From Oscillospiraceae bacterium (GTDB lineage Bacteria > Bacillota > Clostridia > Oscillospirales > Oscillospiraceae): a stretch of DNA of 64,000 bases. Shown piece by piece: positions 9,237 to 24,149 of the stretch. A program made the translations under genes and the position numbers. Each line of letters opens with the position of its first letter. Position 1 is the stretch's first letter. Below the pieces are notes generated by a model that ran no database searches, was not told where the DNA came from, and saw only the letters and a program-made list of their open reading frames with translations. The stretch lies in the NCBI GenBank assembly GCA_015067975.1, contig SVLK01000001.1:147513-211512 (forward strand), read 5' to 3'.

Positions 9237-10127
9237 TTATTCCTCGTCGGTCAACTCATAATACTGACGGACGAAATTATAGAAGAGGTCTGCGCTGGTT
9301 TTGTGGCGGGTGCGCTTATTGCGGGAGAAGAGCATGGTACGGGCGAAGAGAGGATCGGAAATATCCACATAGCGGACATCGCCCAGAATATTGGTCTCTG
9401 CCACCTGCTTGGTGGTCAGCAAAATGCCGTATTCCGCGGCCAGCATGTCTGCGCGGATGTGGAAGTCACATTCCAGTACGATATTGGGCGTAAAATTGGC
9501 CAGCTGGCACAGCGTATCAAAATAGGCGCGGTAGGAATAGCCGCGGCTCAAAGCGATAAAACGTTCGTCCTTTGCCTCGGACAGGCTGATACTGGTGCGG
9601 TTGGCAAAGGGGTGATTCTTATGTACTGCCAGACACGGCGCGGTGTTGCCGGGCAGGGGAATTGACTCAAAAGCGGGAGAATCCAGGTCGGAAGAGGGGC
9701 AGAAAATGAAATCGAAACTCTGCACGATTTCGGGGCTGCTCAGCTGCGTGGTAGTAGTCAATGTGCTGTTGATCTTGATGTCGGGATAGCGCTGCATGAA
9801 GGCGCGGAACAGCTTGGACCAAAGCACGGGACTGGCAATGGAAATGGACAGAGTGTTGGATTGTGCCTGCGCATCGGCGGAAAGCTCCTCCTGTGCCGCG
9901 GCCAGCAGGCTGAGGATCTCGTTGGCGTAACGGGCAAAAATTTTACCCGATTCTGTCAGCGAAAGAGACCGGCCGTGGGTGATGAACAGCGTGGTATCCA
10001 GTTCGCTTTCCAACCGGCGGATACTGGCGGCAATGGCCGGAGGCGAAACATAGAAGTGCTCTGCGGTGCGTGTTAAATGCAGTGTCTGCGACAGATGCAG
10101 GAAATACTCCAGCTGCAGTGTTGTCAT
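9237..10127 (-). CDS. LysR-family transcriptional regulator
   Basis: 296 residues, ATG at 10127. The N-terminal helix-turn-helix (MTTLQLEYFLHLSQTLHLTRTAEHFYVSPPAIAASIRRLESEL) is typical of LysR proteins, and the remainder is the periplasmic-binding-like effector domain (NTLSISIASPVLWSKLF, FIFCPSS, ...). LysR regulators are usually divergently transcribed from the genes they activate, and here the 328-base region upstream faces the large SDR-CoA transferase-transporter operon. It therefore probably activates that operon in response to the imported substrate or a metabolite of it. The identity of the effector is not visible. Confidence 0.95.
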   Translation of the reverse strand: MTTLQLEYFLHLSQTLHLTRTAEHFYVSPPAIAASIRRLESELDTTLFITHGRSLSLTESGKIFARYANEILSLLAAAQEELSADAQAQSNTLSISIASPVLWSKLFRAFMQRYPDIKINSTLTTTTQLSSPEIVQSFDFIFCPSSDLDSPAFESIPLPGNTAPCLAVHKNHPFANRTSISLSEAKDERFIALSRGYSYRAYFDTLCQLANFTPNIVLECDFHIRADMLAAEYGILLTTKQVAETNILGDVRYVDISDPLFARTMLFSRNKRTRHKTSADLFYNFVRQYYELTDEE

Positions 10128-10455: not shown

Positions 10456-11193
10456 ATGGGGCGTTTAGAAAACAGAGTTGCAATTATTACCGGAGCGGCT
10501 GCCGGCATTGGTTATGCCACGGCCAAGAAATTCCTGGAAGAAGGCGCCGGTGTGGCGATCTGTGACGTATCGGAAGAAGCTGTGCAAAAAGCGGCACAGG
10601 AGCTGTCACAGTACGGCAAAGTAAAGGGCTTCAAGGTAGATATCACCGACCGTGCGGCGCTGGACGAGATGGCGGCTGCGGTGAAGGCGGAGTTCGGCAG
10701 GATCGATATTCTGATCAACAATGCCGGCATCGTGATGGATGCCCAGTTCTATAAAATGACGGAAGTGCAGTTTGACAAGGTGATCGATGTCAACCTGAAG
10801 GGTACATATAATTGCTGCCAGGCGGTGATCCCCACCATGATGGAGCAGAATTACGGACGCATCGTCAGTGCCGCTTCCGTATCCGGTTTTAACGGTGCTT
10901 TCGGCCAGAGCAACTATGCCGCTTCCAAGGCGGCCATCATGGGCATGACCCGCTGCATGGGCCGCGAACTGGGTAAGTATGGCATTACGGTGAATGCTGT
11001 AGCACCCGGATCCATCATGACAGCTATGTTTGCCGGGGTTCCCGAGGAGATCAAGCAGAAGAAGCTGAAGGATATCCCGGTGCGCCGTTTTGGTGATCCG
11101 TCCGAGGTGGCCAATGTCTATGCATTCCTGGCATCCGAGGAGGCCAGCTATGTGAACGGAACCACGCTGGTGGTTGACGGCGGCAAGAACTAA
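10456..11193 (+). CDS. SDR-family NAD(P)-dependent oxidoreductase (FabG-like)
   Basis: 245 residues from the ATG at 10456, chosen because GGAGG at 10444-10448 precedes it; an in-frame ATG 15 bases earlier lies within that site. The Rossmann motif TGAAAGIG is at 12-19, NNAG at 88-91, and the catalytic set is Ser near 138-141, Tyr154 and Lys158 in YAASK. Closest in style to 3-oxoacyl-ACP or 3-hydroxyacyl-CoA dehydrogenases of the FabG group. With a CoA-transferase and a thiolase immediately downstream, oxidation of a 3-hydroxyacyl-CoA to the 3-ketoacyl-CoA that the thiolase cleaves is the simplest reading. It is the first gene of the LysR-linked operon. Confidence 0.9.
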   Translation: MGRLENRVAIITGAAAGIGYATAKKFLEEGAGVAICDVSEEAVQKAAQELSQYGKVKGFKVDITDRAALDEMAAAVKAEFGRIDILINNAGIVMDAQFYKMTEVQFDKVIDVNLKGTYNCCQAVIPTMMEQNYGRIVSAASVSGFNGAFGQSNYAASKAAIMGMTRCMGRELGKYGITVNAVAPGSIMTAMFAGVPEEIKQKKLKDIPVRRFGDPSEVANVYAFLASEEASYVNGTTLVVDGGKN

Positions 11194-11209
11194 AGCAGGA
11201 GGCGATGAC

Positions 11210-12406
11210 GTGGATAAGCAAATTTTGTCCGGCATTACGGTGCTGGATTTGACGCGCGTATTCTGCGGTCCTTACTGCACCATGTGGCTGGGTGATATGG
11301 GCGCCAAGATCATCAAGATCGAGCAGCCCAATGTGGGTGATGATACTCGCATGTGGGGCCCTACTCAAAACGGAGCCAGCGCATTTTTTGCCAACCTGAA
11401 CCGCAATAAGTACGGCGTTACGCTGAATTTGAAATCTCCCGAAGGTAAGGAGATGTTCCTCAAGATGGTGGAACAGGCCGATGTGGTAGTGGAGAACTAC
11501 CGCCCCGGCGTCATGAAGAAGATGGGACTGAACTATGAGGAACTGCGCAAGGTGAATCCCCGGATCATCTACGCTTCAGCCTCCGGCTTCGGCACATACG
11601 GACCTTACTCCGATCAGCCCGGATACGACATTGTGGCGCAAGCTATGAGTGGTATCATGAGCCTGACAGGCCATAAGGGCGGTCCTCCTACTCGCGTAGG
11701 CTCTTCCATCGCCGATGCCAGCTCCGGTATCAATCTGGTGGTAGGTATTCTGGCGGCGCTGTATGCCAGAGAGCATACCGGCGAAGGACAGGAGATCGAG
11801 ATCGCACTGGTAGATTCTGTGGTGGGTCTGACCACCGTGGAGAATATGCGCTACTTTGCTACCGGTAAGGTGGCCGAGCGCAACGGCAACCACTACGCGC
11901 TGCTGAGCCCCTACGGTTCTTACCGCGGCAAAGATAAGGACTTTATCATCGGCTGCGGCAATCAGAAGCTGTATGAGCTGCTTTGCAACAACGTGCTCAA
12001 GCGGCCGGAACTGATCACCGATCCCCGGTTCCTGACGGTGGTGGATCGTGCGGCCAATGACGATGAGATGCAGATCGAGGTGGAGAAGTGGTCCACTACG
12101 GTGACGGCCAAGGAAGCGATTGAACTGCTGCATGCCAACGGCATCCCTGCAGGCCCGCTGAACGATACCAGCGATGTGGTGGTGGATGAGCATATTGCCG
12201 GCGCGCGTGAGATGTTCCCCGAAGTGGAGCACCCCATAGTCGGAAAGCTGAAAGGCACGGCCGTACCCATCAAGTTCTCTGATACCCCCACCACCATTCG
12301 CAAACCCTCCCCGCTGCTGGGTGAGGACAACGCCGCTATTTACGGCGAGATGCTGGGATTGGACGAGGTACAGCTGGCGCAGCTGAAGGAAAAGAAGATC
12401 ATTTGA
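11210..12406 (+). CDS. Class III CoA-transferase (CaiB/BaiF family)
   Basis: 398 residues from a GTG at 11210, with CAGGAGG 6-9 bases upstream. The sequence opens GITVLDLTRVFCGPYCTMWLGDMGAKIIKIE, the hallmark of family III CoA-transferases such as formyl-CoA transferase, CaiB and BaiF. Asp169, in SSIADASSG, falls at the position of the catalytic Asp that forms the acyl-CoA anhydride intermediate. Enzymes of this family move CoA from one acid to another without ATP, activating a carboxylic acid for further breakdown. The donor and acceptor are unknown; context suggests activation of the acid brought in by the ABC importer encoded downstream. Confidence 0.9.
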   Translation: MDKQILSGITVLDLTRVFCGPYCTMWLGDMGAKIIKIEQPNVGDDTRMWGPTQNGASAFFANLNRNKYGVTLNLKSPEGKEMFLKMVEQADVVVENYRPGVMKKMGLNYEELRKVNPRIIYASASGFGTYGPYSDQPGYDIVAQAMSGIMSLTGHKGGPPTRVGSSIADASSGINLVVGILAALYAREHTGEGQEIEIALVDSVVGLTTVENMRYFATGKVAERNGNHYALLSPYGSYRGKDKDFIIGCGNQKLYELLCNNVLKRPELITDPRFLTVVDRAANDDEMQIEVEKWSTTVTAKEAIELLHANGIPAGPLNDTSDVVVDEHIAGAREMFPEVEHPIVGKLKGTAVPIKFSDTPTTIRKPSPLLGEDNAAIYGEMLGLDEVQLAQLKEKKII

Positions 12407-12416
12407 GGTACAGACA

Positions 12417-13610
12417 ATGAAAGATGTTTATATTGTTGCAGCCTGCCGCACAGCGGTGGGCAAGATGGGCGGTGCGCTGAAGGACATTGAGGCCGATGAG
12501 CTGCTGAGCATCGTGATGAAAGACGTCATCCAACGCGCCGGCATTGACCCCGGTGAGCTGGATCAGGTGATCGTGGGTCAGGCCAAGCAGACGGCAGACG
12601 CCGCCAACATCGGCCGTGTGTCGGCTTTGCTGGCCGGCATCCCCGAGAAAGTGCCTGCTTACACCGTCATGCGCCAGTGCGGCTCCGGCATGCAGGCCAT
12701 CCAGAACGGTGTGCAGGAGATCCAGGTGGGTGAGTCCGGCATGGTGCTGGTAGGCGGTGTGGAGAGCATGACCAATGCCCCCTACTATCTGCGCGGTGCA
12801 CGTTACGGCTACAAGGCGGGCAATGCGGTATTGGTAGACCCCAACACCGAGAGCCAGCCCAGATCGCAACCCATTTCCATCTACGGCTCTTTCGGCATGG
12901 GTATCACGGCAGAAAATTTGGCGGAGATGTATCATGTGTCCCGCGAGGAGCAGGATGCCTTTGCCATGCAGAGTCAGGAACGTGCCGCGGCGGCCATCGC
13001 CGAAGGCAAGTTCAAAGATGAGATCACGCCGGTGCGCATCCCTCAGCGCAAGGGTGAAGACATTATCTTTGAAGTGGACGAACATCCCCGCGCCACCACG
13101 CTGGAGAAGCTGGCAAAGCTGAAGCCGGTATTCAAAGATGGCGGTACGGTGACGGCCGGTAACTGCAGCGGCCGCAACGACGGTTCCAGTGCACTGATTC
13201 TGGCCGATGAAGAGCATGTGAAGAAACTGGGACTCAAGCCTATGGCTAAGATTCTGGCTTGTACCAGTGCAGGCGTGGATCCGCGCATCATGGGTATTGC
13301 ACCCGCCTATTCTTCCCGCAAGGCACTGGAGCGTGCCGGCTTGAAGCAGGAAGATATCGGCCTTTGGGAGCTGAACGAAGCGTTCGCTGCCCAGAGTCTG
13401 GCAGTACTCAAGGAAATGGGACTGGATCAGGAGATCGTCAATGTCAACGGCGGTGCCATTGCCTTGGGTCATCCTCTGGGATCCTCCGGTTCGCGTATCA
13501 CCATTACGCTGCTGTATGAAATGATGCGCCGCGGTACCCGTTACGGTCTGGCCACCCTGTGCACAGCAGGCGGTCAGGGCATGTCTGCCATTTTGGAACT
13601 GTGCGAATGA
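12417..13610 (+). CDS. Acetyl-CoA C-acyltransferase (thiolase)
   Basis: 397 residues, 10 bases after the CoA-transferase gene. The three catalytic residues are visible: Cys88 in RQCGSGMQ, His352 in GGAIALGHPLGSSGSR, and Cys382 in CTAGGQGMS. Length and motifs fit the short tetrameric thiolases such as AtoB or PhaA. The enzyme either cleaves a 3-ketoacyl-CoA with CoA or condenses two acetyl-CoA. With an SDR dehydrogenase and a CoA-transferase in the same transcript the degradative direction is favoured, but butyrate or hydroxybutyrate synthesis cannot be excluded. An 80-base gap with a small TTCACA/TGTGAA inverted repeat (13623-13640) separates it from the binding-protein gene. Confidence 0.95.
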   Translation: MKDVYIVAACRTAVGKMGGALKDIEADELLSIVMKDVIQRAGIDPGELDQVIVGQAKQTADAANIGRVSALLAGIPEKVPAYTVMRQCGSGMQAIQNGVQEIQVGESGMVLVGGVESMTNAPYYLRGARYGYKAGNAVLVDPNTESQPRSQPISIYGSFGMGITAENLAEMYHVSREEQDAFAMQSQERAAAAIAEGKFKDEITPVRIPQRKGEDIIFEVDEHPRATTLEKLAKLKPVFKDGGTVTAGNCSGRNDGSSALILADEEHVKKLGLKPMAKILACTSAGVDPRIMGIAPAYSSRKALERAGLKQEDIGLWELNEAFAAQSLAVLKEMGLDQEIVNVNGGAIALGHPLGSSGSRITITLLYEMMRRGTRYGLATLCTAGGQGMSAILELCE

Positions 13611-13690
13611 TCACGGTATCTGTTCACACGCCGTTGTGAATGAAATGATACATACCCCGCAAAAAATAAAAAAGAAAGAAGGACGTATTT

Positions 13691-14878
13691 ATGAAAAAGC
13701 TGATTACCCTCTTGTTGGCACTGGCTATGATCCTGTCTCTGGTTGCCTGTGGCGCCAAGGACGACGGCGGCAAGGCTAACGCTGCCGATACCATTCTGGT
13801 TGGCTGCTACATGCCCATGACTGGCCCCACGGCTGCTGCCGGTCTGGACCAGCTGAACGGCGTGAAGATGGCCATCGATGCCGTCAACGCTGCCGGCGGT
13901 ATCAATGGCAAGCAGATCGAGCTGAAGGCCTACGATGATACCGGCACGTCTGAAGGTGCTGTGAAAGCAGCTACCCGTCTGATCGAAGAAGATGGCGTGA
14001 AGATCATCATCGGTTCTTCTACCTCCGGCAACATCCTGGCTGTTTCCTCCGTGACTGAGGCTGCCAAGGTGACCCAGGTCGGTACCGGTACCGGCGCAAC
14101 CTGGACCAACATCGGTCTGAGCTACACCTACCGTGCCACCTCCAACAGCACCCTGCCCATCTCTACCATGGCTACCCAGATCAAGGACTTCGGCTACAAG
14201 AAGGTCGCTTTGATGTCCGTTGAGTCTGAGTTTGGTCAGTCCGGCCGCGATTCCATCCTCGCTGCCTGCGAAAAGAACGGTATCGAGCTGATCGCTGACA
14301 TCAAGTTCCAGTCCAACGAGGCTGACTTCTCCGGCGCTGCTGCCAAGGCTATCGCTGCCAATCCCGAGGCTGTGATCGTTTACGGTGTTGGTTACGAAGA
14401 GGCTATGGTGACCAAGCAGCTGCGCGCCAACGGCTACAAGGGCCTGATCTTCACCACCGAAGGTGCTACCGACGCTCAGATGCTGAACACTGCCGGCGCT
14501 GCCGCTGACGGCGTTGTCTTTGCTGCTACCTATGTTGTTCCCGCCACCGCTGAGGAAGGCGCTACCGAACTGATCCGCAAGGTTCTGAAGGAGTGCGTTG
14601 ATACCTACGGTGCTATGCCTTACTGCGACCAGTTCTATCGTGGCTACGACCAGGCTTGCCTGGTGGTCGAGGCTCTGAAGAATGCTGAGGACATCAATGA
14701 CGGCGAGTCCATCATGAAGGCCTTCAAGGGCATCAAGGGCTTCGTTGGCCTGGGCGGTGAGTTCGACTTCACTGCCGGTACCGGTGACGGTCTGGCCAAC
14801 ACCTCCAAGTGGATGATCCTGGACGGCAAGATTCAGGAGTACGATAAGGCTGCTCTGGAGGCTTTCCTGGCTAAGTAA
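13691..14878 (+). CDS. ABC transporter substrate-binding lipoprotein, branched-chain amino acid (LIV/HAAT) type
   Basis: 395 residues with GAAGGA upstream. A lipoprotein signal peptide ends in LSLVACG with Cys20 lipidated. The mature protein is a Leu/Ile/Val-binding type I fold (VGCYMPMTGPTAAAGLDQLNGVKMAIDAVNAAGGINGKQIELKAYDD in overview). It supplies the two permeases and two ATPases that follow. The LIV family also carries amides, urea, aromatic acids and short organic acids, and the surrounding CoA-based catabolic genes suggest an acid rather than an amino acid. Codon choice is markedly more biased than that of its neighbours, as expected for an abundant protein. Confidence 0.95.
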   Translation: MKKLITLLLALAMILSLVACGAKDDGGKANAADTILVGCYMPMTGPTAAAGLDQLNGVKMAIDAVNAAGGINGKQIELKAYDDTGTSEGAVKAATRLIEEDGVKIIIGSSTSGNILAVSSVTEAAKVTQVGTGTGATWTNIGLSYTYRATSNSTLPISTMATQIKDFGYKKVALMSVESEFGQSGRDSILAACEKNGIELIADIKFQSNEADFSGAAAKAIAANPEAVIVYGVGYEEAMVTKQLRANGYKGLIFTTEGATDAQMLNTAGAAADGVVFAATYVVPATAEEGATELIRKVLKECVDTYGAMPYCDQFYRGYDQACLVVEALKNAEDINDGESIMKAFKGIKGFVGLGGEFDFTAGTGDGLANTSKWMILDGKIQEYDKAALEAFLAK

Positions 14879-15014
14879 AGATTTGACAGGTTTCAGACAT
14901 GTCCGATAACGAAAGACAAGTTCGATGAAGTTTATCTGAGCATTGTTGCGAAGACATACTTCACAGCAAACAGCTTGGAACTTATCGCATGTCTTGTGTC
15001 ACGGTGATACAAAC

Positions 15015-15048
15015 GGGGATGGACTTCTCCGTACAGAAGTCCATCCCC
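15015..15048 (+). other. Long GC-rich hairpin between binding-protein and permease genes
   Basis: Fourteen perfect base pairs (15015-15028 with 15035-15048) around CCGTAC, with no T-run after it. It probably protects the upstream mRNA from 3' exonucleases or gives partial termination, letting the binding protein be made in excess over the membrane parts. Confidence 0.7.
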
Positions 15049-15110
15049 CGTATCTTACCCGCTGCCTGTGGGGACGTGCGGTACTTTATTGATTGCGAGG
15101 AGACAAAAGT

Positions 15111-15992
15111 ATGGACCTTTCGTTGATTATTAAACTCGTGGTCGCTGCGCTGATGATCGGTTCGGTCTACTCTGCGCTGGGCATGAGTTACAGTTTGATT
15201 TATAAGGCGTCGGGCCTGATGAACCTGGCTATGGGCAACTTCCTGATGCTGGGTGCTTATGTGGGTTTGACCTTCTACAGTATTCTGGGCCTGAACATCG
15301 GGCTGAGCTTTGTTCTTACCTTTATCGTTATGTTTATCTTTGGCATCATTGTCCAGAGATACCTCATTGATTCGCTGCTGAAAAAAGGTGCAGCATTCTC
15401 TTACATTATTTTGCTGACTGCAGCGCTGGGTCTGGCTATGGAAAACAGTGCTATCCTGATTTGGACTCCCTATACCTTGTATTTTCCCGCTATCTTCAAT
15501 ACTGCCAGCGTGGAAATCGCCGGCGCCCATGTGGCCCCCGAGAACCTGCTGGTGCTTGGCATAGCGGTTTTCAGTTGTGTTGGTTTGTTCATCTTCCTGA
15601 ACAAGACCAAGTTTGGCACGGCAATGCGTGCCTCTGCACAGGATCAGGTTGCCGCAGGTGCGCTGGGCATCAATGTAGGACTGACCAAGGATGTGACCTG
15701 GGGTCTTGCCTCTTCGCTGGCCGGTGTTATCGGTATGGCGTTGGGTCCCGTGTACGGTGTTTACAGCACCATGGGTGCCATGATCGCCCAAAAGGCTTTC
15801 GCCGGCTCCGTGACCGGCGGCTACGGCAACATCATCGGTGCCGTGGTGGGCGGTGTGTTCTACGGTTTCCTGGAGACGTTTGTTTCTGCATTTATCACCA
15901 CTACGTATAAAGACGTTATCTCCTTCACTGTGCTGATCATCATTCTGGTGATCTCCCCCACCGGCCTTTTCAAAGAAAAGGTCATTGAATAA
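15111..15992 (+). CDS. livH: Branched-chain amino acid-type ABC transporter permease, LivH family
   Basis: 293 residues from ATG at 15111, with GCGAGGAG upstream. About eight hydrophobic segments; YSLIYKASGLMNLAMGNFLMLGAYV and the loop FGTAMRASAQDQVAAGALGIN are typical LivH signatures, the second being the contact loop for the ATPases. It forms half of the membrane channel with the LivM protein downstream. The substrate is set by the binding protein and is unknown. The gene follows a 232-base gap containing a strong hairpin. Confidence 0.95.
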   Translation: MDLSLIIKLVVAALMIGSVYSALGMSYSLIYKASGLMNLAMGNFLMLGAYVGLTFYSILGLNIGLSFVLTFIVMFIFGIIVQRYLIDSLLKKGAAFSYIILLTAALGLAMENSAILIWTPYTLYFPAIFNTASVEIAGAHVAPENLLVLGIAVFSCVGLFIFLNKTKFGTAMRASAQDQVAAGALGINVGLTKDVTWGLASSLAGVIGMALGPVYGVYSTMGAMIAQKAFAGSVTGGYGNIIGAVVGGVFYGFLETFVSAFITTTYKDVISFTVLIIILVISPTGLFKEKVIE

Positions 15993-16003
15993 GGGAGGTG
16001 GCA

Positions 16004-16999
16004 ATGATGAAAATGAAAATTAAGAATCATTTATCTTCCGTGATTTTCTGGGCGGTTCTGGCAGTGACGCTGCTGCTGTTTGCTCAGAAAAACTACTATG
16101 CGTTTATCATTGCACTGTTTGGCGTTTACGCCATCGTGGCAACGGCGCTGGATGTGCTGTTCGGCTACACCGGACAGATTTCCCTCGGTCATGCCGGCCT
16201 CTTTGCTATCGGCTCGTATGTAACGGCGCTGCTGTCGCTGAAGCTGAGCGTACCCACAGCTATTGCGCTGATTTTGGGTGCAGTTGCAGCTACGGTGGTA
16301 GGTGCACTGATTGCCATTCCCGCGTCCAAGCTGGTCAAACACTTCCTCTCGCTGCTGATGATCGCATTTGGACAGATCGTCTACCTGATCATCAACTCCT
16401 GGAGCAAGGTGACCGGCGGTAGTTTGGGCTTGATGAACATCCCCAAGCTGAACCTGTTTGGTTTCAAGTTTGACTCCTACATCAAGATCGCCATTCTGAT
16501 CTGGCTGGTGCTGGCGCTGCTGCTGGTGGTCAAGGTACGCATCATCAACTCCCGTGTGGGCAGCGCGTTCATCGCCCTGCGTGAAAACAGTGTGGCTGCC
16601 AAGGGCCTGGGCATCAACATTAAGAAGTACAAGGTCATGGCATTTGCCATCAGTGCCTTTATGACCGGCCTGGCTGGTGGTCTGTACACCTATGTGCGTG
16701 GCTTCATCAGCCCCGAGACCTTTAACGGTACGCAGTCCACATTGTTCATGACCATGCTGCTCTTCGGCGGTATCTGCACGGTGGAAGGTCCTGTGATCGG
16801 CGCTGTGGTGCTGCTGCTGGTCAAGGAAGTGTTCCAGTCGCTGGCGCTGTATCAGGGCCTGGTTTACGCCTTGTTCATGCTGATCGTTCTGTTCTTCCTG
16901 CCCAACGGCGTTGTGGGTATCTTCAAGTCTATGGGCGGTGTCGTAGCTAAGCTGAAAAAGAAGAACAAAAAGGAGGGCCAAGTCAATGCTGAAAATTGA
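16004..16999 (+). CDS. livM: Branched-chain amino acid-type ABC transporter permease, LivM family
   Basis: 331 residues from ATG at 16004; GGGAGG at 15993-15998 makes the in-frame GTG at 15998 an unlikely start, and ATG 16007 is an alternative. About nine membrane segments and the motifs LFGYTGQISLGHAGLFAIGSYV and GSAFIALRENSVAAKGLGIN, characteristic of LivM. The C-terminus is Lys-rich (KLKKKNKKEG). It pairs with LivH. The last 14 bases overlap the LivG gene. Confidence 0.95.
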   Translation: MMKMKIKNHLSSVIFWAVLAVTLLLFAQKNYYAFIIALFGVYAIVATALDVLFGYTGQISLGHAGLFAIGSYVTALLSLKLSVPTAIALILGAVAATVVGALIAIPASKLVKHFLSLLMIAFGQIVYLIINSWSKVTGGSLGLMNIPKLNLFGFKFDSYIKIAILIWLVLALLLVVKVRIINSRVGSAFIALRENSVAAKGLGINIKKYKVMAFAISAFMTGLAGGLYTYVRGFISPETFNGTQSTLFMTMLLFGGICTVEGPVIGAVVLLLVKEVFQSLALYQGLVYALFMLIVLFFLPNGVVGIFKSMGGVVAKLKKKNKKEGQVNAEN

Positions 17000-17744
17000 A
17001 AACATTACCATTAAGTTCGGCGGACTGGTGGCCAACAACAATGTCTGCACCGAAATAAAGGAAGGTCAGATTTTTGGCCTGATCGGCCCCAATGGTGCCG
17101 GCAAGACCACGCTGTTCAACATTGTCAGCGGATTCTATGCCCCTACCTCCGGTAAGGTGATCTTCAACGGCGAAGAGATTCAGGGAAAACCCTCCAATGA
17201 GATCGCTTACAAAGGTATCATGCGCACTTATCAGAACATCAACCTGTTCAAGAAAATGACCACGCTGGAGAACGTAATGGTGGGCTGTCACAGTCTGACC
17301 AACGCCACGCTGTGGGATGCCATTATCAAGAGCAAGAAATCCCAGAAGGAGCATGAGGAAGCACTGGAGAAATGCCATGAAGTGATGAAGTTCATGAACA
17401 TTGACCAGTTTGCCAACGTGAAGGCGGCCAACCTGCCCTACGGTGACCAGAGAAGACTGGAAATCGCCCGTGCGCTGGTCAGCAACCCCAAGCTGATTTT
17501 GCTGGATGAGCCTGCCGCCGGTATGAACCTGTCGGAAAAGGATGTGTTGGCTGAAACCATCCAGAAGATCCGTGACCGCGGCCATACGGTGTTCCTGGTG
17601 GAGCACCACATGAAGCTGGTGACAGCTGTGTGCGACCGAATCTGCGTGCTCAACCACGGCAACAAGATCGCAGAGGGTACGCCCGAAGAGATCCAGAATC
17701 ATCCTGAGGTAATCGCGGCCTATTTGGGCGGCGCCCAGAAGTGA
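16986..17744 (+). CDS. livG: ABC transporter ATP-binding protein, LivG family
   Basis: 252 residues, overlapping the LivM gene by 14 bases, with AAGGAGGG upstream. Walker A GPNGAGKTT near residue 36, signature region LPYGDQRRLEIARAL (a LivG variant of LSGGQ), Walker B LILLDEPAAGM, and H-loop VEHHMKLV are all intact. It energises import together with LivF. A 62-base gap with a small TTCGCAT/ATGCGAA hairpin (17760-17779) separates it from the LivF gene. Confidence 0.95.
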   Translation: MLKIENITIKFGGLVANNNVCTEIKEGQIFGLIGPNGAGKTTLFNIVSGFYAPTSGKVIFNGEEIQGKPSNEIAYKGIMRTYQNINLFKKMTTLENVMVGCHSLTNATLWDAIIKSKKSQKEHEEALEKCHEVMKFMNIDQFANVKAANLPYGDQRRLEIARALVSNPKLILLDEPAAGMNLSEKDVLAETIQKIRDRGHTVFLVEHHMKLVTAVCDRICVLNHGNKIAEGTPEEIQNHPEVIAAYLGGAQK

Positions 17745-17806
17745 CCGGGGCTGCTGCTTCGCATCTGCATATGCGAAACGGCGGTGATCCTAACAGAAAG
17801 GTATGC

Positions 17807-18538
17807 ATGACAATGAAAGACACGATTCTTGAAATCAAAGACCTGCACTTTCAATACGGTGAGATCGTGGCACTGCACGGTGTTTCGCTGACGGTCAAAG
17901 AGGGTGAGATCGTAACGCTGCTGGGCGGTAACGGCGCCGGTAAAACCACTACACTGACGGCGGTTTCCGGTATCTATCGCGGCATTACCAAGGGCGAGGT
18001 CAACTTCATGGGCGAGAGCCTGAAGGGTCTGCCTCCTCATAAAATCGCAGCCAAGGGCATTGCCCACTGCTTTGAAGGCCGCAGAGTATTTCCCCAGCTG
18101 ACCGTGCGGGAGAACCTGATGCTGGGTGCGTATCTGCGCCCCCAGAAGTCCAAGGAAGTGGCAGACGATCTGGAATATGTATTTGACCTGTTCCCTCGCC
18201 TGAGAGAGCGTGAAAAGCAGGACGGCGGTACGCTGTCCGGCGGTGAGCAGCAGATGCTGGCTGTGGGCCGTGCACTGATGCAAAAGCCCAAGCTGTTGAT
18301 GCTGGATGAGCCCAGTCTGGGCCTTGCTCCTATCATCGTAGAGGACATTTTCAAAGCCATCAAGAAGATCAATCAGGACGGTGTGCCCATCCTGCTGGTC
18401 GAGCAGAACTGCAATGTGGCGCTGGAAGTGGCGGACAGAGGTTACGTGCTGGAAACCGGCAACATCGTCATCGAAGATGTGGCCGAAAAACTCATGGAGA
18501 ACGAAGCCATCCGCAAGAGTTACATGGGTATTGAATAA
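17807..18538 (+). CDS. livF: ABC transporter ATP-binding protein, LivF family
   Basis: 243 residues from ATG at 17807 (ATG 17813 is also possible), with AGAAAGG upstream; the frame stays open further 5' but without a ribosome site. Walker A GGNGAGKTTT, signature LSGGEQQMLAVGRALM, Walker B LLMLDEPSLGLAP and H-loop VEQNCNVAL are all present. FEGRRVFPQLTVRENLMLGAY is typical of LivF. It completes the five-part importer. Confidence 0.95.
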   Translation: MTMKDTILEIKDLHFQYGEIVALHGVSLTVKEGEIVTLLGGNGAGKTTTLTAVSGIYRGITKGEVNFMGESLKGLPPHKIAAKGIAHCFEGRRVFPQLTVRENLMLGAYLRPQKSKEVADDLEYVFDLFPRLREREKQDGGTLSGGEQQMLAVGRALMQKPKLLMLDEPSLGLAPIIVEDIFKAIKKINQDGVPILLVEQNCNVALEVADRGYVLETGNIVIEDVAEKLMENEAIRKSYMGIE

Positions 18539-18567
18539 TTCGTGCGCAGAGTGTATGATTGACGAAA

Positions 18568-18597
18568 GGGAGTGGGCCGGCCCAAAGGCTCACTCCC
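18568..18597 (+). terminator. Possible weak terminator after livF
   Basis: Eleven paired bases with one G-T wobble (18568-18578 with 18587-18597), followed by TACTTT rather than a clean T-run. It may reduce rather than stop readthrough into the M81 gene. Confidence 0.45.
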
Positions 18598-18636
18598 TAC
18601 TTTCAAATGAGCGGAATTTCGAGTAGTGAGGTGCGT

Positions 18637-20142
18637 ATGAAACGTATCTATATCTGCATGTTTAAAGAAGAGAGCAACTCTTTCAGTCCCGGAATCATGG
18701 GAATGGAGGAGTTTCGAAAGAGCATCCGTACCGGCGAGGATCTGGTGCATCCTGACGGACGGGCCGGACAGACCATCCGCGCCTTTGTGGAGGTACTCAC
18801 AGAGAAGGGATATACACCGGTGGGTGGGATCGGCATGACCGCCCAGAGCGGTGGCCCTGTATCCCGGGAGGTAGTGGACTATTTCCGCGAAAATGCGCTG
18901 CAGCGGCTGCGCGAGGCGGGAGATGTGGATGGCTTACTGCTGTATTTCCACGGGGCCACCATTTCCGAGGACTCCGACGATGTCTGCGGCGATTTGCTGG
19001 AGACATTTCGAGCTGTTGTAGGACAGGAGATGCCGATTGCTGTGGCCTGCGATATGCATGCCAATGTAACAAGGAGAGTCATGGCACAGGTGGATTTCAT
19101 CTGTGGCTATATCACATATCCCCATGCCGATTTTTATGAAACCGGCCGCCGTGCGGCGCAGTTGCTGTGCCGCAAGCTGAGCGGGGAGACGTTGAAAACG
19201 GCGTGGGTCACGATCCCTATGCTGGCGCCGGCCAGCGGCTACACCACCAACGATCCGCAGCTGCACGCATTGATGCAGCGCGGGCACGAAATGGTACAGC
19301 AAGGGGAAATCAGCGATTTTACGATTTTTCAGGCGCAGCCTTGGCTGGATGTGCCGCAGATCGCCACATCGGTGGTGGTGACTGCCTGTGCGGAGCGGGC
19401 AGCGAAAGATGCGGCAGCTATGCTGGCCGCGGGAGAGTTTACCCTGCGTGAAGTGCTGCAAGGCACATCGATGATGACGCTGCGGGAAGGGATTCAGGCG
19501 GCGTTGGATAATCCGGAGGACAGGCCGGTGATTCTGGCCGACTCTGCCGACAGCAGCGGTGCAGGATCCCGCGGCGACAGCGCTGTGCCGATCGCGCAGC
19601 TGCTGCCGCACCGCAATGTGCTGCGTGCGGCGGTGACGGTGGCAGACCCTGCTGCCGTGGATAAAGCCTTTGCACTGGGCGTGGGCGGCAGAGCAGATTT
19701 CTGGCTGGGCGGCACCCTGGCGCCGCGGCTGACGCAGCCGGTGCTGGTGGAAGATGCCGTAGTGGAAAGCCTGCATGAGGGCGATTACGTAGCGGCAGGT
19801 CCGGCAGAAAAGGGAATGACATTCCATATCGGTCCGTGTGCCGTACTGCGCGCGGGTAAGATCCGGATTCTGGTGATCCGCAGTGGACAGACAGAGCGGG
19901 ATATTCAATTCTTCCGTGGATTTGGCATCGAGCCTGCCGATTGCCGTCTGGTGTGTGTCAAGGCCTGTGCGTCGTTCCGTGCCAGTTACGAGGGAGTGGC
20001 GGCGCAGATCCACACGGTGGCTACACCCGGTTCGGCCGGACATGTGTTGACGGAGCTGCCCTATACACGGTTGCCGCAGCCACTCTATCCCTTCCAGCAA
20101 ATCGACGAGAGTCATATTTCTCAGCCGGTTTGCCTGCGATAA
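18637..20142 (+). CDS. M81 family metallopeptidase (MlrC-like)
   Basis: 501 residues from ATG at 18637 with GTGAGGTG upstream. The opening YICMFKEESNSFSPGIMGMEEF, the DGLLLYFHGATISEDSDD segment with a metal-site His, and ACDMHANVT with a further His are M81 signatures; ILADSADSSGAGSRGDSA opens the C-terminal MlrC domain. Family founder MlrC degrades linearised microcystin, but most members sit in operons for small molecules and their substrates are unknown. Position between a LIV importer and a sugar-acid-like kinase suggests hydrolysis of an imported amide or peptide-like compound. That assignment is inference. Confidence 0.9.
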   Translation: MKRIYICMFKEESNSFSPGIMGMEEFRKSIRTGEDLVHPDGRAGQTIRAFVEVLTEKGYTPVGGIGMTAQSGGPVSREVVDYFRENALQRLREAGDVDGLLLYFHGATISEDSDDVCGDLLETFRAVVGQEMPIAVACDMHANVTRRVMAQVDFICGYITYPHADFYETGRRAAQLLCRKLSGETLKTAWVTIPMLAPASGYTTNDPQLHALMQRGHEMVQQGEISDFTIFQAQPWLDVPQIATSVVVTACAERAAKDAAAMLAAGEFTLREVLQGTSMMTLREGIQAALDNPEDRPVILADSADSSGAGSRGDSAVPIAQLLPHRNVLRAAVTVADPAAVDKAFALGVGGRADFWLGGTLAPRLTQPVLVEDAVVESLHEGDYVAAGPAEKGMTFHIGPCAVLRAGKIRILVIRSGQTERDIQFFRGFGIEPADCRLVCVKACASFRASYEGVAAQIHTVATPGSAGHVLTELPYTRLPQPLYPFQQIDESHISQPVCLR

Positions 20143-20160
20143 ACGAAAGGAGCAGATCCT

Positions 20161-21645
20161 ATGCGGTATATTCTTGCCTTTGATGTGGGCACGACTGCCG
20201 TCAAGGCGATTTTGATCAACTGTGAAACAAAAGAGATGCGCAGTGCCGGAGCGCCCTGCGAGCTGACGCAGCTTCATCCCGGCTGGGCGGAGCAGGACGC
20301 CGACCAGATGTGGAATGCAGTATGTCAGGCGTCCCGCGCCTGTGTGGCGGCAGACGATGTGGATGTTTCCGAAATTGGCGGCATCGTGATCAGTGCGCCG
20401 TGGAAACATGTGATCGCGCTGAATGAAAACGGAGAACCTATCCGTAAGAGCATTATCTGGATGGACGGACGCGCCATTGAGCAGGCAAAGCGGCTCAATG
20501 AAACGATGGGACGCTTTGTAGAGCATGCGCAGGGTTACTGGACGCGGCTGATGTGGCTGAAAGAGAACGAACCGGAGGTATGGGCGCAGGCGAAACATAT
20601 CGTTGGCATCAATGACTATTTCAAGTACCGTGCCACCGGAAATCTGTGTACGGAGTGTTCCGATGACTTTATCCATTCGCCCAATGCGAAACTGCAGCAG
20701 CTGTATGACGAGGTGCTGGAAAAGGTGGGACTGGCGGAGGACAAGGACAAGTTCCCGCCCTGCATTGCCTGCACCGATTGTGCCGGTTATCTGACGCAAG
20801 AGGGGGCGGCACAGCTGGGACTGCGGCCGGGAATGCCTATGTTCGGCGGATTTGGTGATCTGCCGGCAGTATATCTGGGCAGCGGCTGCCGCGCCGAAGG
20901 CACAGCGCACATCTATTTGGGCACGTCTTCGTGGTTTGGTGAACTGTTGAGCGACCGGATTGACAATTACAGCAGTTCCTGGTTTACGGCGGATGACAAA
21001 AATCAAGGGGCGTTGTTTGGCCTGACCACCGGCGGCCGTGCCTATGAGTGGGTGATCAACCGCTTTTACAAAGAGGAAAGAGAGCGGCTGGGTGATGGGA
21101 TTTATGCCCTGCTGGACCGTGAAATGGCGCAGGTGGCGCCGGGATGCGATGGGCTGATCGTGACCCATTGGCTCAACGGTGAGCCGCCACCGCTGGCTAA
21201 AAACGCCAAGTCGGTGTTTTTCAACGTAACGGAGCAGCATCAGCGGCAGCATTTTGTCCGTGCCATGCTGGAGAGTATCTGCTATTCCCACCGCCGCTCA
21301 CTGGAAAAGTATATCGCGCAACATGGCTGCCCGCCCAAGCAGATCAGCGTGGTAGGCGGCGGAGCATGCAGCGATGTGTGGATGCAGATGATGGCTGACA
21401 TACTGAAAATGCCTGTTCGCGTGCCGGACAATCCCCGCTATGTGGGCACGATGGGATCTTACTACTGCGCGCTGATCGGCTTGGGGCTGAAGCAGGATTT
21501 TTCCGATTTGAGCCGGCAGGACGGCGGGAAGATTTTTACGCCCAATGCGGCCAACGCAGAAGTCTATGACAAAATGTTCGGCATCTACATGGATCTCTAT
21601 CCTGCGCTGAAGAATTTGTACGACCGCTTGAACGGTGTGTATTAA
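20161..21645 (+). CDS. FGGY-family carbohydrate kinase
   Basis: 494 residues with AAAGGAG upstream. The N-terminal ATPase lobe starts ILAFDVGTTAVKAILINCE, the family phosphate-1 motif. IIWMDGRA and the HPGWAEQDADQMW segment resemble xylulokinase and gluconate kinase. The C-terminal lobe contains VVGGGACSDVWMQMMADIL, the adenosine motif. The enzyme should phosphorylate a sugar, polyol or sugar acid with ATP in the cytoplasm. It lies 19 bases after the M81 gene and 14 before the LarA-like gene. A substrate such as a sugar acid would be consistent with a hydroxy-acid epimerase next door. Confidence 0.92.
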   Translation: MRYILAFDVGTTAVKAILINCETKEMRSAGAPCELTQLHPGWAEQDADQMWNAVCQASRACVAADDVDVSEIGGIVISAPWKHVIALNENGEPIRKSIIWMDGRAIEQAKRLNETMGRFVEHAQGYWTRLMWLKENEPEVWAQAKHIVGINDYFKYRATGNLCTECSDDFIHSPNAKLQQLYDEVLEKVGLAEDKDKFPPCIACTDCAGYLTQEGAAQLGLRPGMPMFGGFGDLPAVYLGSGCRAEGTAHIYLGTSSWFGELLSDRIDNYSSSWFTADDKNQGALFGLTTGGRAYEWVINRFYKEERERLGDGIYALLDREMAQVAPGCDGLIVTHWLNGEPPPLAKNAKSVFFNVTEQHQRQHFVRAMLESICYSHRRSLEKYIAQHGCPPKQISVVGGGACSDVWMQMMADILKMPVRVPDNPRYVGTMGSYYCALIGLGLKQDFSDLSRQDGGKIFTPNAANAEVYDKMFGIYMDLYPALKNLYDRLNGVY

Positions 21646-21658
21646 GGGGGGAATCGCC

Positions 21659-22915
21659 ATGAAACTGGAATTTGGATACGGAAACGGAATACAGAGCGTA
21701 GAAGTGCCGGAAAAGAATCTGCTGGCGGTACTGGAGTCCAATCCTGTTGCTCATGAACGGCGTGGAGCAGATGCGGTGCGCTATGCATTGGATCATCCCA
21801 TCGGTGCGCCGCGGCTGTGCGAGATCGTCCGTCCGGGACAGACGGTGGCAGTGGTCACCAGCGATATCTCCCGTCCGCTGCCCAGCTATGATGTGCTGCC
21901 GGCGGTGCTGGATGAACTGTATGCCGGCGGGATCCTGAAAGAAGATATCACCGTGGTGCTGGCGTTGGGATCACACCGTAAGCATACGGAGGAGGAAAAA
22001 CGCAAGCTGGTAGGGGAGCGCTGCTATACCGAGGTGCGCTGCGTGGACAGCGATGTGGACGACTGCGTGCACATGGGCGTGACAAAGGCCGGTACGCCGG
22101 TGGATATCACCCGCTGCGTTGCCGAGGCAGATGTGCGTGTGTGTTTGGGCAATATCGAGTTTCACTACTTTGCAGGTTATTCCGGCGGCGCCAAGGCCAT
22201 TATGCCCGGTGTATCCACACCGGCAGCCATCCAGCAGAACCACCGCATGATGGTGTCCAATGATGCCTGTGCCGGCAAGCTGGAAGGGAATCCAGTCCGG
22301 GCAGATATCGAGGAGGCCGGTGAGATCTGCGGGATCGACTATATCGTCAACGCGGTGCTGGATGAGCATAAGCATATTGTTTACGCGGTGGCCGGTGATG
22401 TGACGCAGGCACACCGCGTGGGCTGCGCGTATCTGGATAAGATGTACCGCAAGAAACTGACGCAGCGGGCAGACATTGTGCTGGTGTCGCAGGGGGGTGC
22501 ACCCAAGGACGCCAATCTCTATCAGGTGCAAAAGGCACTGGACAACGCCAAGCACGCCGTGCGTGATGGCGGTACCATCATTTTGATGGGTGCCTGCCCG
22601 GAGGGATTAGGCAGCAAAAAATTCGAACAATGGTTGACAAGTGCACCCACAGCCCATAGTATGGTGGATAGGATCTCGCAGCAGTTTGAACTGGGCGGCC
22701 ACAAGGCTGCGGCCATTGGTATGGTGCTGGACCGCGCCAATATCGACCTTATCAGCGAGATGGACGATGCGTTTGTGCGCAGCATTTTCCTCAATCCCCA
22801 GCCGTCGGCGCAGGCGGCATTTGATGCGGCTATGGAGAAGTACGGGGCAGACGCTACCGTGATCGCCATGCCCTACGGCGGCGCGACGCTGCCTTATCTG
22901 GAAAAGAGCAAGTAA
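21659..22915 (+). CDS. LarA-like nickel-pincer hydroxy-acid racemase/epimerase (DUF2088)
   Basis: 418 residues from ATG at 21659 with AAGGGGGG upstream. The residues used by lactate racemase LarA are all seen: Asp69 and Arg72 in TSDISRPLP, His106/His109 in GSHRKHTEEE, His169 in GNIEFHYF, Lys179 in GYSGGAKAIMPG, and His195 in IQQNHRM. The spacing His169-Lys179-His195 equals that of LarA (174-184-200). In LarA the Lys carries the nickel-pincer cofactor. Members interconvert D- and L-forms of lactate, malate and other 2-hydroxy acids, or epimerise sugar acids. No larB, larC or larE cofactor genes are in the window, so the cofactor must come from elsewhere. Confidence 0.9.
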   Translation: MKLEFGYGNGIQSVEVPEKNLLAVLESNPVAHERRGADAVRYALDHPIGAPRLCEIVRPGQTVAVVTSDISRPLPSYDVLPAVLDELYAGGILKEDITVVLALGSHRKHTEEEKRKLVGERCYTEVRCVDSDVDDCVHMGVTKAGTPVDITRCVAEADVRVCLGNIEFHYFAGYSGGAKAIMPGVSTPAAIQQNHRMMVSNDACAGKLEGNPVRADIEEAGEICGIDYIVNAVLDEHKHIVYAVAGDVTQAHRVGCAYLDKMYRKKLTQRADIVLVSQGGAPKDANLYQVQKALDNAKHAVRDGGTIILMGACPEGLGSKKFEQWLTSAPTAHSMVDRISQQFELGGHKAAAIGMVLDRANIDLISEMDDAFVRSIFLNPQPSAQAAFDAAMEKYGADATVIAMPYGGATLPYLEKSK

Positions 22916-22933
22916 TACAGGGAGGTATATACA

Positions 22934-24106
22934 ATGGATTACGCAAAAGAATCTCTGCGTCTGCACAATGAATGGAAGGGCAAGATCGAAGTGGTCTGTA
23001 CGGTACCGTGCAAGACCAAGGATGATTTGTCTTTGGCTTACACCCCCGGTGTGGCTCAGCCTTGTCTGGAGATACAGAAAGACGTGGACAAGTCCTATGA
23101 TCTGACCCGTCGCCACAACCTGTGCGCCGTGATCACCGACGGCAGCGCTGTGCTGGGACTGGGCGATATCGGGCCTGAGGCCGGTATGCCCGTCATGGAG
23201 GGCAAATGCGCGCTGTTCAAGGCGTTCGGCGATGTGGATGCGTTCCCTCTGTGCATCAAGAGCAAAGATGTAGACGAGTTCGTGAATGCGGTGTATCTGG
23301 TGTCCGGCTCTTTCGGCGGCGTAAATCTGGAGGATATCTCCGCACCCCGCTGCTTTGAGATCGAGCGCAAGCTGAAGGAAAAGTGTGATATTCCCATCTT
23401 CCACGATGACCAGCACGGTACGGCTGTTATTACGCTGGCAGGATTGCAGAATGCACTGAAGGTGGTGGGAAAGAAGAAGGAAGAGGTAAAGATCGTTACC
23501 TCCGGTGCCGGCGCTGCCGCCATTGCTATCGTGAAGCTGCTGCTGAGCGCAGGCTTTAAGAACATCACCATGTGTGACCGCAGCGGTGCCATCTATGCCG
23601 GCCGCGAGGGCCTGAACTGGATCAAGGAAGAGATGGCACAGGTGACCAACCCTGAAAAGAAGCAGGGCAGCCTTGCCGACGTGATCGTGGGTGCTGACGT
23701 GTTTATCGGCGTTTCCGCGCCCGGTACGCTGACCACGGAGATGGTAAAGACCATGAACCGTGATGCTATCGTGTTCGCCTGCGCCAACCCCACGCCGGAG
23801 ATCTTCCCGGCCGATGCCAAGGCCGGCGGCGCCAAGGTGGTGTCTACCGGACGCAGCGACTTCCCCAACCAGATCAACAACGTGCTGGCATTTCCCGGCA
23901 TTTTCCGCGGTACATTTGATGTGCGTGCCAGCGACATCAATGAGGAGATGAAGATGGCTGCTGCACAGGCGTTGGCGGATCTGATCTCTGAGGAAGAACT
24001 GAACGAGGATTACATCATCCCCGCAGCTTTCGATCCCCGTGTAGGTCCTGCGGTAGCCGCTGCCGTGGCAGAAGCTGCCCGTAAGACCGGCGTGGCAAGA
24101 ATATAA
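22934..24106 (+). CDS. NAD(P)-dependent malic enzyme
   Basis: 390 residues with GGGAGG upstream. LAYTPGVAQPCLEI supplies the catalytic Tyr, MEGKCALFKAFGDVDAFPLC the catalytic Lys region, IFHDDQHGTAVITLAGL the metal-binding Asp residues, and VTSGAGAAAIAIVKLLL the nucleotide-binding loop. The length matches the short bacterial malic enzymes, without a phosphotransacetylase extension. It converts L-malate to pyruvate and carbon dioxide. Being last in the operon and directly after a hydroxy-acid racemase, it may use malate generated by the pathway. Confidence 0.93.
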   Translation: MDYAKESLRLHNEWKGKIEVVCTVPCKTKDDLSLAYTPGVAQPCLEIQKDVDKSYDLTRRHNLCAVITDGSAVLGLGDIGPEAGMPVMEGKCALFKAFGDVDAFPLCIKSKDVDEFVNAVYLVSGSFGGVNLEDISAPRCFEIERKLKEKCDIPIFHDDQHGTAVITLAGLQNALKVVGKKKEEVKIVTSGAGAAAIAIVKLLLSAGFKNITMCDRSGAIYAGREGLNWIKEEMAQVTNPEKKQGSLADVIVGADVFIGVSAPGTLTTEMVKTMNRDAIVFACANPTPEIFPADAKAGGAKVVSTGRSDFPNQINNVLAFPGIFRGTFDVRASDINEEMKMAAAQALADLISEEELNEDYIIPAAFDPRVGPAVAAAVAEAARKTGVARI

Positions 24107-24114
24107 AGGTAAAC

Positions 24115-24146
24115 AAAAAACGATCCGCAGCTGCGGATCGTTTTTT
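24115..24146. terminator. Perfect 32-base palindromic terminator
   Basis: A fully self-complementary sequence: A6, ten bases, their complement, T6. It lies between convergent malic enzyme and polysaccharide deacetylase genes and should work in both directions. Confidence 0.95.
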
Positions 24147-24149
24147 GCG

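Follow-up and report, generated by a model that had tools for sequence, protein, structure and literature searches.

Positions 10456-24106 of a 64,000-nt window from the genome of an Oscillospiraceae bacterium (assembly GCA_015067975.1, contig SVLK01000001.1, positions 147,513 to 211,512 of the forward strand) carry a run of 12 plus-strand genes that we read, with moderate confidence, as a LysR-controlled mosaic catabolic operon built from exchangeable modules, its likeliest substrate being a hexulosonate or a deoxy sugar acid, possibly one joined through an amide. The parts belong to known enzyme families; their combination is unusual. Three points are established here: the gene families, the assignment by sequence of one product to the malate racemases, and the recurrence of the modules in other operons. 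The second of these offers a concrete role for one puzzling gene, a malate racemase that would feed a malic enzyme, and the third turns a large 'unrecognised pathway' into a mosaic of modules recurring within one genome and across families.

Organization of the operon

The gaps between the 12 genes are all 232 bp or shorter (in gene order 16, 10, 80, 232, 11, -14, 65, 98, 18, 16 and 18 bp; the 65-bp LivG-LivF gap becomes 68 bp if LivF starts at the ATG at 17813), and the reading frames of all 13 genes, LysR included, are open. An earlier sequence-only reading of the window had described twelve same-strand genes of individually familiar types between a LysR regulator and a terminator; all the named genes were found where it had placed them, and domain profiles put their products in known enzyme families (Table 1). 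The operon is flanked on its 5' side by the divergent LysR gene, whose product scored above cut-off with none of its 25 best NCBIfam models, and on its 3' side by a strong terminator. Folded as plus-strand RNA, this terminator was matched by none of 200 shuffled sequences; the terminator scan assigns it to the minus strand, and its plus-strand T-run pairs with an A-run. Across the window, the scans returned 17 terminator-like sites (13.0 ± 3.4 in shuffles) and 12 promoter-like sites (11.0 ± 2.9 in shuffles), neither number being above chance, so that the evidence for the terminator at 24113-24148 is its own stem.

Two further hairpins are located inside the operon, in the LivK/LivH and LivF/M81 gaps, both at module borders; for the second, one of 200 shuffles was equally good. 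As neither is followed on its 3' side by a good plus-strand T-run, they may serve to trim or stabilise the transcript instead of terminating it. The hairpin at 15015-15048 would act as an attenuator or an mRNA stabiliser, and both are possible attenuators or message-stabilising elements. Gene order, gaps and terminator agree with a single, putative LysR-controlled operon as read from the DNA, and the 12 genes are likely to share one transcript.

Table 1. Genes and RNA elements of the operon and its borders, in order of position in the window.
Feature	Position	Strand	Support
LysR-family regulator, divergent	9237..10127	-	PF03466 88 bits, PF00126 59 bits
FabG-like SDR, read as a beta-hydroxyacyl-CoA dehydrogenase	10456..11193	+	PF13561 239 bits
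Class III (CaiB/BaiF) CoA-transferase	11210..12406	+	PF02515 427 bits, catalytic Asp168
Thiolase (acetyl-CoA C-acyltransferase)	12417..13610	+	TIGR01930 469 bits, cut-off 240.6; Cys88, His352, Cys382
LIV/HAAT-type solute-binding lipoprotein (LivK)	13691..14878	+	PF13458 194 bits
Strong hairpin, LivK/LivH gap (232 bp)	15015..15048	+	14 pairs, -30 kcal/mol, z -6.8 for 15005-15065
LivH-type permease	15111..15992	+	PF02653 98 bits
LivM-type permease	16004..16999	+	PF02653 128 bits
LivG-type ATPase	16986..17744	+	PF00005, PF12399
LivF-type ATPase	17813..18538	+	PF00005 108 bits; frame from 17810, one codon before ATG; start by gene call
Hairpin, LivF/M81 gap (98 bp)	18567..18598	+	12 pairs, z -3.3 for 18535-18640
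M81 (MlrC-type) zinc amidohydrolase/peptidase	18637..20142	+	PF07364 (DUF1485) 248 bits, PF07171 (MlrC_C) 135 bits
FGGY carbohydrate kinase, M81-linked subfamily	20161..21645	+	PF00370, PF02782
Predicted nickel-pincer malate racemase, LarAH6/Mar2 family	21662..22915	+	NF052593 554.4 bits, cut-off 500
Malic enzyme, second copy in genome	22934..24106	+	PF00390, PF03949
Terminator, common to convergent deacetylase gene	24113..24148	+	16-pair palindromic stem, z -5.4

A probable malate racemase paired with a malic enzyme

The best-supported assignment in the operon is that of the LarA-type protein, which its sequence identifies, on solid grounds, as a probable malate racemase. Its closest solved structure is that of Mar2 (6d6z, E 1.5e-121), and in the alignment with Mar2 the residues for the nickel-pincer nucleotide (NPN) cofactor and for catalysis, among them Arg, His and Lys, and the His-Lys substrate pair are all kept. 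The residues that mark malate racemases, including His/Gln-Lys at the substrate position, are given in the available part of PMC11770544, and the cofactor-binding and catalytic residues of the LarA family are also given in the sections at hand of PMC7583248, where a neighbouring malic enzyme is treated as a clue to malate racemase and the reaction of Mar2 is judged consistent with its gene context. In the window, a malic enzyme gene begins 18 bp 3' of larA. This enzyme looks dedicated to the operon, because the genome holds another copy, 57% identical, at C42:37610-38710 (C38, C31 and C42 denote contigs of the source genome, G numbers genomes and L numbers gene neighbourhoods). On the strength of the model score, the residues and the malic enzyme neighbour, the pair reads as a route from D-malate through L-malate to pyruvate.

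On the same three lines of evidence, a sugar-acid epimerase was rejected as the identity of the LarA-type protein. The kinase/epimerase handling into which the sequence-only reading had placed it is not supported: the protein scores as a malate racemase, and its partner is the malic enzyme rather than the kinase. Compared with Mar2 (LarAH6) of Thermoanaerobacterium thermosaccharolyticum, as described in the accessible portion of PMC7583248, the window protein belongs to the same LarA subfamily and has the same key residues, but its gene is joined to a LIV importer, a CoA module, an M81 gene and an FGGY gene, and no NPN synthesis genes were detected in the genome.

The start of the window larA (21655-21724), comprising the ribosome site and the first codons, recurs as a 70-bp copy of 94% identity at C38:44606-44674, directly 5' of an M81 gene at 45036; this copy stands alone, with nothing more of larA behind it.

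Recurrence of the modules in other operons

The complete gene set was found in none of the neighbourhoods taken, and the whole operon was not met in the samples searched with the M81, SDR (short-chain dehydrogenase/reductase) and binding protein sequences; the samples of Clostridia comprised 196 to 391 genomes. An operon of G455, a genome of another family (L140), has the order LacI, LivKHMGF, UxaE (tagaturonate epimerase; 641 bits), Zn-dehydrogenase, GAPDH-like, PGK-like, split transketolase, malic enzyme and LarA. Its LivK, LivH, LivM, LivG and LivF are 39, 52, 46, 58 and 69% identical to those of the window, its malic enzyme 67% and its LarA 54%, the latter scoring 601 bits on the malate-racemase model. 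It differs from the window operon in having LacI, not LysR, and a transketolase and GAPDH/PGK route in place of the CoA module, M81 and FGGY.

A second related operon resides in the source genome itself (C42:58-77k, L174), where LivK, CaiB, LivHMGF, two thiolases, CaiB, SDR and a third thiolase are accompanied by two 3HCDH genes, a Zn-dehydrogenase, UxaE (543 bits) and a split transketolase. With the window operon it shares the LIV importer (ATPases 45-50% identical, binding protein 35% over 172 residues), CaiB (52%), SDR (42%) and thiolases (30-39%); it differs in possessing UxaE, transketolase, 3HCDH and Zn-dehydrogenase and in being devoid, over that stretch, of M81, FGGY, LarA and malic enzyme. 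Taken together, the window and C42 operons hold the importer and the enzymes of the G455 set, minus the GAPDH-like and PGK-like proteins. The UxaE family, known from the hexuronate pathway of Thermotoga (PMC3750489, in the part available), is represented in both sister operons and not in that of the window.

Conservation beyond close strains, on which the sequence-only reading had staked its proposal, was not seen for the full neighbourhood: no fetched locus holds the whole set, and searches of 31 congeners and 28 other relatives gave no SDR match at E <= 1e-60. It was seen for the pieces, which occur in other families.

The C42 operon runs on to the contig end (58-84k) with genes for an Fe-alcohol dehydrogenase, a CoA-transferase, an HpaB-family protein, an acyl-CoA dehydrogenase and ETF; none of the three downstream enzymes tested scored above its NCBIfam cut-off, and the stretch would represent a 4-hydroxybutyrate/butyrate gene set.

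LarA in transketolase and inositol operons of other Clostridia

Twenty LarA neighbourhoods were taken from the 25 matches outside the source genome; several lie on short contigs, so that the counts of neighbours are lower bounds. GAPDH-like and PGK-like genes are present in six of them (L125, L131, L136, L137, L139 and L140), and the other 14 have neither these nor malic enzyme. All four neighbourhoods with malic enzyme are among these six (Fisher p 0.003), five of which also contain a split transketolase. IolD and IolE were identified in L125 (872 and 419 bits) and L136 (911 and 441 bits; cut-offs 715 and 290, respectively), and IolD was detected by tblastn in L139; the IolB-like proteins of L125 and L139 remained below cut-off. 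Its model score identifies the GAPDH-like protein of L125 as a type II GAPDH (399 bits, cut-off 185). These gene sets suggest that 5-keto-2-deoxygluconate or a similar acid is converted by transketolase to malate semialdehyde, which would pass through malyl phosphate to malate with formation of ATP, followed by racemisation and conversion to pyruvate. We found no description of a transketolase/malate branch of inositol breakdown in the literature searched (open-licence papers), nor in the part of PMC12130570 that was available. Inositol and hexulosonate breakdown in Clostridia may run by way of transketolase, malate semialdehyde and D-malate to pyruvate, and such a branch, if true, would go some way to account for the malate racemases being the largest group within the LarA superfamily, as stated in the available part of PMC11770544.

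The M81 hydrolase and its associated kinase

The predicted zinc ligands of the window M81 protein, Glu12, His105, Asp139, His141 and His163, are invariant across 26 aligned sequences and align with Glu56, His150, Asp184, His186 and His208 of the microcystinase MlrC (PDB 7ylq), for which these ligands are given in the accessible part of PMC12474180. Nevertheless, the window protein scores 148 bits against an MlrC cut-off of 999, and its gene is linked to a kinase, not to MlrA/B. Judged from its sequence, it could be a peptidase or could hydrolyse another amide, and the M81 family would best be seen as amide hydrolases with varied substrates.

The adjoining FGGY kinase was given no specificity by models or solved structures (XylB 240 bits, cut-off 380). 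It is 35-57% identical to five related kinases, four of which adjoin M81 genes and one of which is encoded on the contig of another M81, and 25% identical to the FGGY protein at C38:33590. The FGGY proteins of the five M81 loci, together with the one from another M81's contig, share 32-57% identity with each other, as against 23-27% with the C38:33590 protein, which has no M81 beside it. Same-strand, adjacent M81 and FGGY genes occur at five loci: L070 (G363), L071 (G621), L077 (G455), C38:73-76k and the window, the order being M81-FGGY in the window and FGGY-M81 at the other four. The three pairs outside the source genome come from 33 M81 neighbourhoods, partial matches in G514 and G355 having been left out.

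In an M81 tree of 26 rows (the five of the source genome and 21 of 34 other M81 frames), all five paired proteins fall into one clade of 11 rows (support 100/100), and the remaining 15 rows contain no paired protein (Fisher p 0.007). Around the 13 M81 frames outside the tree, no FGGY was detected by tblastn at E <= 1e-15, a threshold that a very distant FGGY might escape. The paired proteins do not make up a single clade, since at least four changes are needed on the tree, indicating repeated gain or loss of the pairing. The five M81 genes of the source genome are scattered through the 11-row clade, a placement that suggests several acquisitions rather than recent duplication. In the class sample, M81 is found in 27 of 391 genomes, the source included, with at most two genes in any other genome; in the family sample, the window M81 is matched in six of 300 genomes, again including the source (G062 has four matches, two of them partial); and in the phylum sample, four further genomes of 338 have a match at E <= 1e-60, with 30-32% identity. 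These poorly understood hydrolases are in this way tied to a kinase subfamily.

The contexts of the pairs vary. In L070 a LarA that scores as the lactate-racemase type (614 bits, cut-off 460) comes after the pair, and at C38:73-79k the pair is accompanied by a DeoR regulator, a transaldolase-like gene, an SDR and a Zn-dehydrogenase. In L082 (5503-11073; G667), a close M81 relative (49% identical) follows genes for a DeoR regulator, a DAO-type FAD protein, a pyridine-nucleotide oxidoreductase and a DUF1667 protein, which as a group are reminiscent of anaerobic glycerol-3-phosphate dehydrogenase. Elsewhere in the window, at 36673-38217, an SBP_bac_5 oligopeptide-type binding protein is encoded that is 83% identical to its counterpart in an importer-M81 operon at C38:38969.

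The CoA module and the importer

The SDR has a YAASK active site and scores just below the cut-off of the FabG model NF004198 (294.1 bits, cut-off 296). The catalytic Asp of the CoA-transferase is present, as the sequence-only reading had stated; it had called this residue Asp169, which we take to be its number in formyl-CoA transferase, and it is residue 168 here, counting from the start at 11210, a difference of numbering. None of the equivalog models for oxalate, formyl, mesaconate, glutarate or carnitine substrates exceeded its cut-off (best 325.8 bits, cut-off 522). The checked residues are intact in the SDR, CaiB, thiolase, malic enzyme, LarA and M81 proteins. As domain profiles reveal neither an enoyl-CoA hydratase nor an acyl-CoA dehydrogenase among the operon genes, a 3-hydroxy acid should be the starting compound of the CoA module.

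Among 25 CaiB matches outside the window, 13 were taken for analysis of the neighbourhood, six of them gene by gene; save for the second operon of the source genome, SDR or thiolase genes are near none of the 13. In L176-L178, the CaiB relatives adjoin genes that by eye, in the absence of profiles, are LeuC/LeuD-like and lyase-like, pointing to a different pathway for those relatives.

The LIV importer is complete, with a binding protein, two permeases and two ATPases. A relative of the binding protein at E <= 1e-50 was found in two of the 391 class genomes, the source genome and G455; up to four candidates were scored per genome, and further relatives may exist.

A proposed pathway and its alternatives

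The reactions, the order of the steps, the control by LysR and the class of substrate are all points that we infer. The LIV-type importer would take up the substrate, and M81 would cut an amide and release a sugar or polyol part, to be phosphorylated by the FGGY kinase. The acid part, a 3-hydroxy acid, would be loaded with CoA by CaiB; the FabG-like SDR would oxidise the 3-hydroxyl (beta-hydroxyl) of the acyl-CoA, and the thiolase, with CoA, would cleave the product into acetyl-CoA and a shorter acyl-CoA. D-malate, originating from one of these routes or from a sister operon, would be converted to L-malate by the racemase and then by the malic enzyme to pyruvate, CO2 and reduced nicotinamide. 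The sequence-only reading had envisaged uptake of an amide, a hydroxy acid or a sugar acid followed by two branches. As regards uptake, an organic-acid or sugar-acid type is retained in part, the sister operons adding UxaE and transketolase beside a like importer; as regards the branches, the CoA branch (activation, beta-hydroxyacyl oxidation and thiolysis) survives in part, and at least three enzyme modules take the place of two branches.

A more specific scheme, which we put forward as speculation with little chance of being right, is a beta-oxidation of sugar acids. Here a 2-deoxy sugar acid, which is already a 3-hydroxy acid, would be joined to CoA, undergo oxidation at C3 and be split by thiolysis into acetyl-CoA and a four-carbon hydroxyacyl-CoA, from which CaiB would pass the CoA to the next substrate molecule, freeing D-malate for the racemase and the malic enzyme. 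If true, this would be a CoA-based counterpart of the transketolase/GAPDH-like/PGK-like route to malate proposed for the G455 and inositol operons.

Several observations weigh against the sugar-acid operon with a malate branch. No enzyme of the window operon visibly makes malate, and no G455-type GAPDH-like or PGK-like gene is present in the 352 kb examined (C38, C31 and C42). Furthermore, the 20 kb taken for the four closest LarA genes (70-71% identical; L120-L123, all from one genus) contain neither malic enzyme nor M81 nor FGGY, the LarA neighbours in L120 and L122 looking unrelated when read gene by gene, and malic enzyme accompanies LarA in only four of the 20 neighbourhoods, some of these being on short contigs.

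The internal hairpins are also to be counted here, since they may split the transcript. They would fit an arrangement of two or three unrelated adjacent units, mostly with their own promoters, in which a 3-hydroxy-acid CoA pathway with the LIV importer is followed by a separate M81-FGGY-LarA-malic enzyme unit. This arrangement, which we regard as possible although rather unlikely, draws on the coincidence of the hairpins and the two widest gaps (232 and 98 bp) with module borders and on the fact that each module is found elsewhere without the others. However, the sole convincing terminator is the one at the operon end, and in G455 the closest relative found of the importer is joined to malic enzyme and LarA, linking the modules across the second hairpin.

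A further difficulty for a plain sugar acid is the ligand of the importer. Glu257 of the binding protein aligns with a Glu of 4n0q, an amino-acid-type relative, and with an Asp of 4nqr; the position is occupied by Asn in 4obb, which is closely alike to 4nqr, and by His in 4jb0 and 3uk0. We assume that this position contacts the ligand amino group in LIV-type proteins, and Glu257, which is also found in the G455 binding protein and is lost in the C42 paralogue, would favour a ligand whose nitrogen belongs to an amino or amide group, and would suit an amino compound more readily than a plain sugar acid. It is mainly because of Glu257 that an amide-linked substrate was kept as an option. Likewise, two of the five M81 genes of the source genome (C38:12-19k and 38-46k) follow oligopeptide-type importers with SBP_bac_5, OppC_N and oligo_HPY domains. 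Among 494 plasmid records with an M81 match, three annotated neighbourhoods were viewed: in Phyllobacterium and Halorussus, M81 adjoins five-part importers that include two permeases and two ATPases and are, to judge from their layout, likewise of the oligopeptide type, and in Microvirga it is beside an amino-acid-type binding protein and ornithine cyclodeaminase. All of this would suit an amino-acid or peptide-like conjugate, with LIV importing an amino-acid amide, M81 cleaving it and the remaining enzymes handling the acid part, Glu257 being common to the Leu/Ile/Val-binding-type 4n0q and to G455. We nonetheless judge this unlikely: the operon has no deaminase, aminotransferase or ammonia-handling gene, and its FGGY kinase, along with the UxaE and transketolase of the linked operons, points to sugar acids.

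The supply of the nickel-pincer cofactor, finally, bears on the malate branch. According to the available part of PMC11770544, synthesis of NPN requires LarB, LarE and LarC. In the source genome, which is 84% complete, LarC has no match and the matches to LarB and LarE are weak and below cut-off; this absence is provisional, and were it true the racemase would be inactive for want of cofactor. An orphan LarA of this kind could belong to a decaying, partly non-functional operon in a recently acquired island, in line with the SDR having no match among the 31 congeners and with the lone larA-start copy beside a second M81 gene on C38. We consider such decay very improbable. In control searches of 20 other genomes, LarC is present in 14; LarA at E <= 1e-90 is present in 18, of which 13 have LarC and five (G503, G519, G451, G504 and G444) have none found. 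G503, with the closest LarA (71% identical), is 99% complete. LarA without LarC is not rare in this sample, so that the absence of LarC does not imply decay; moreover, all 13 frames of the operon and its regulator are open, and the checked residues are in place.

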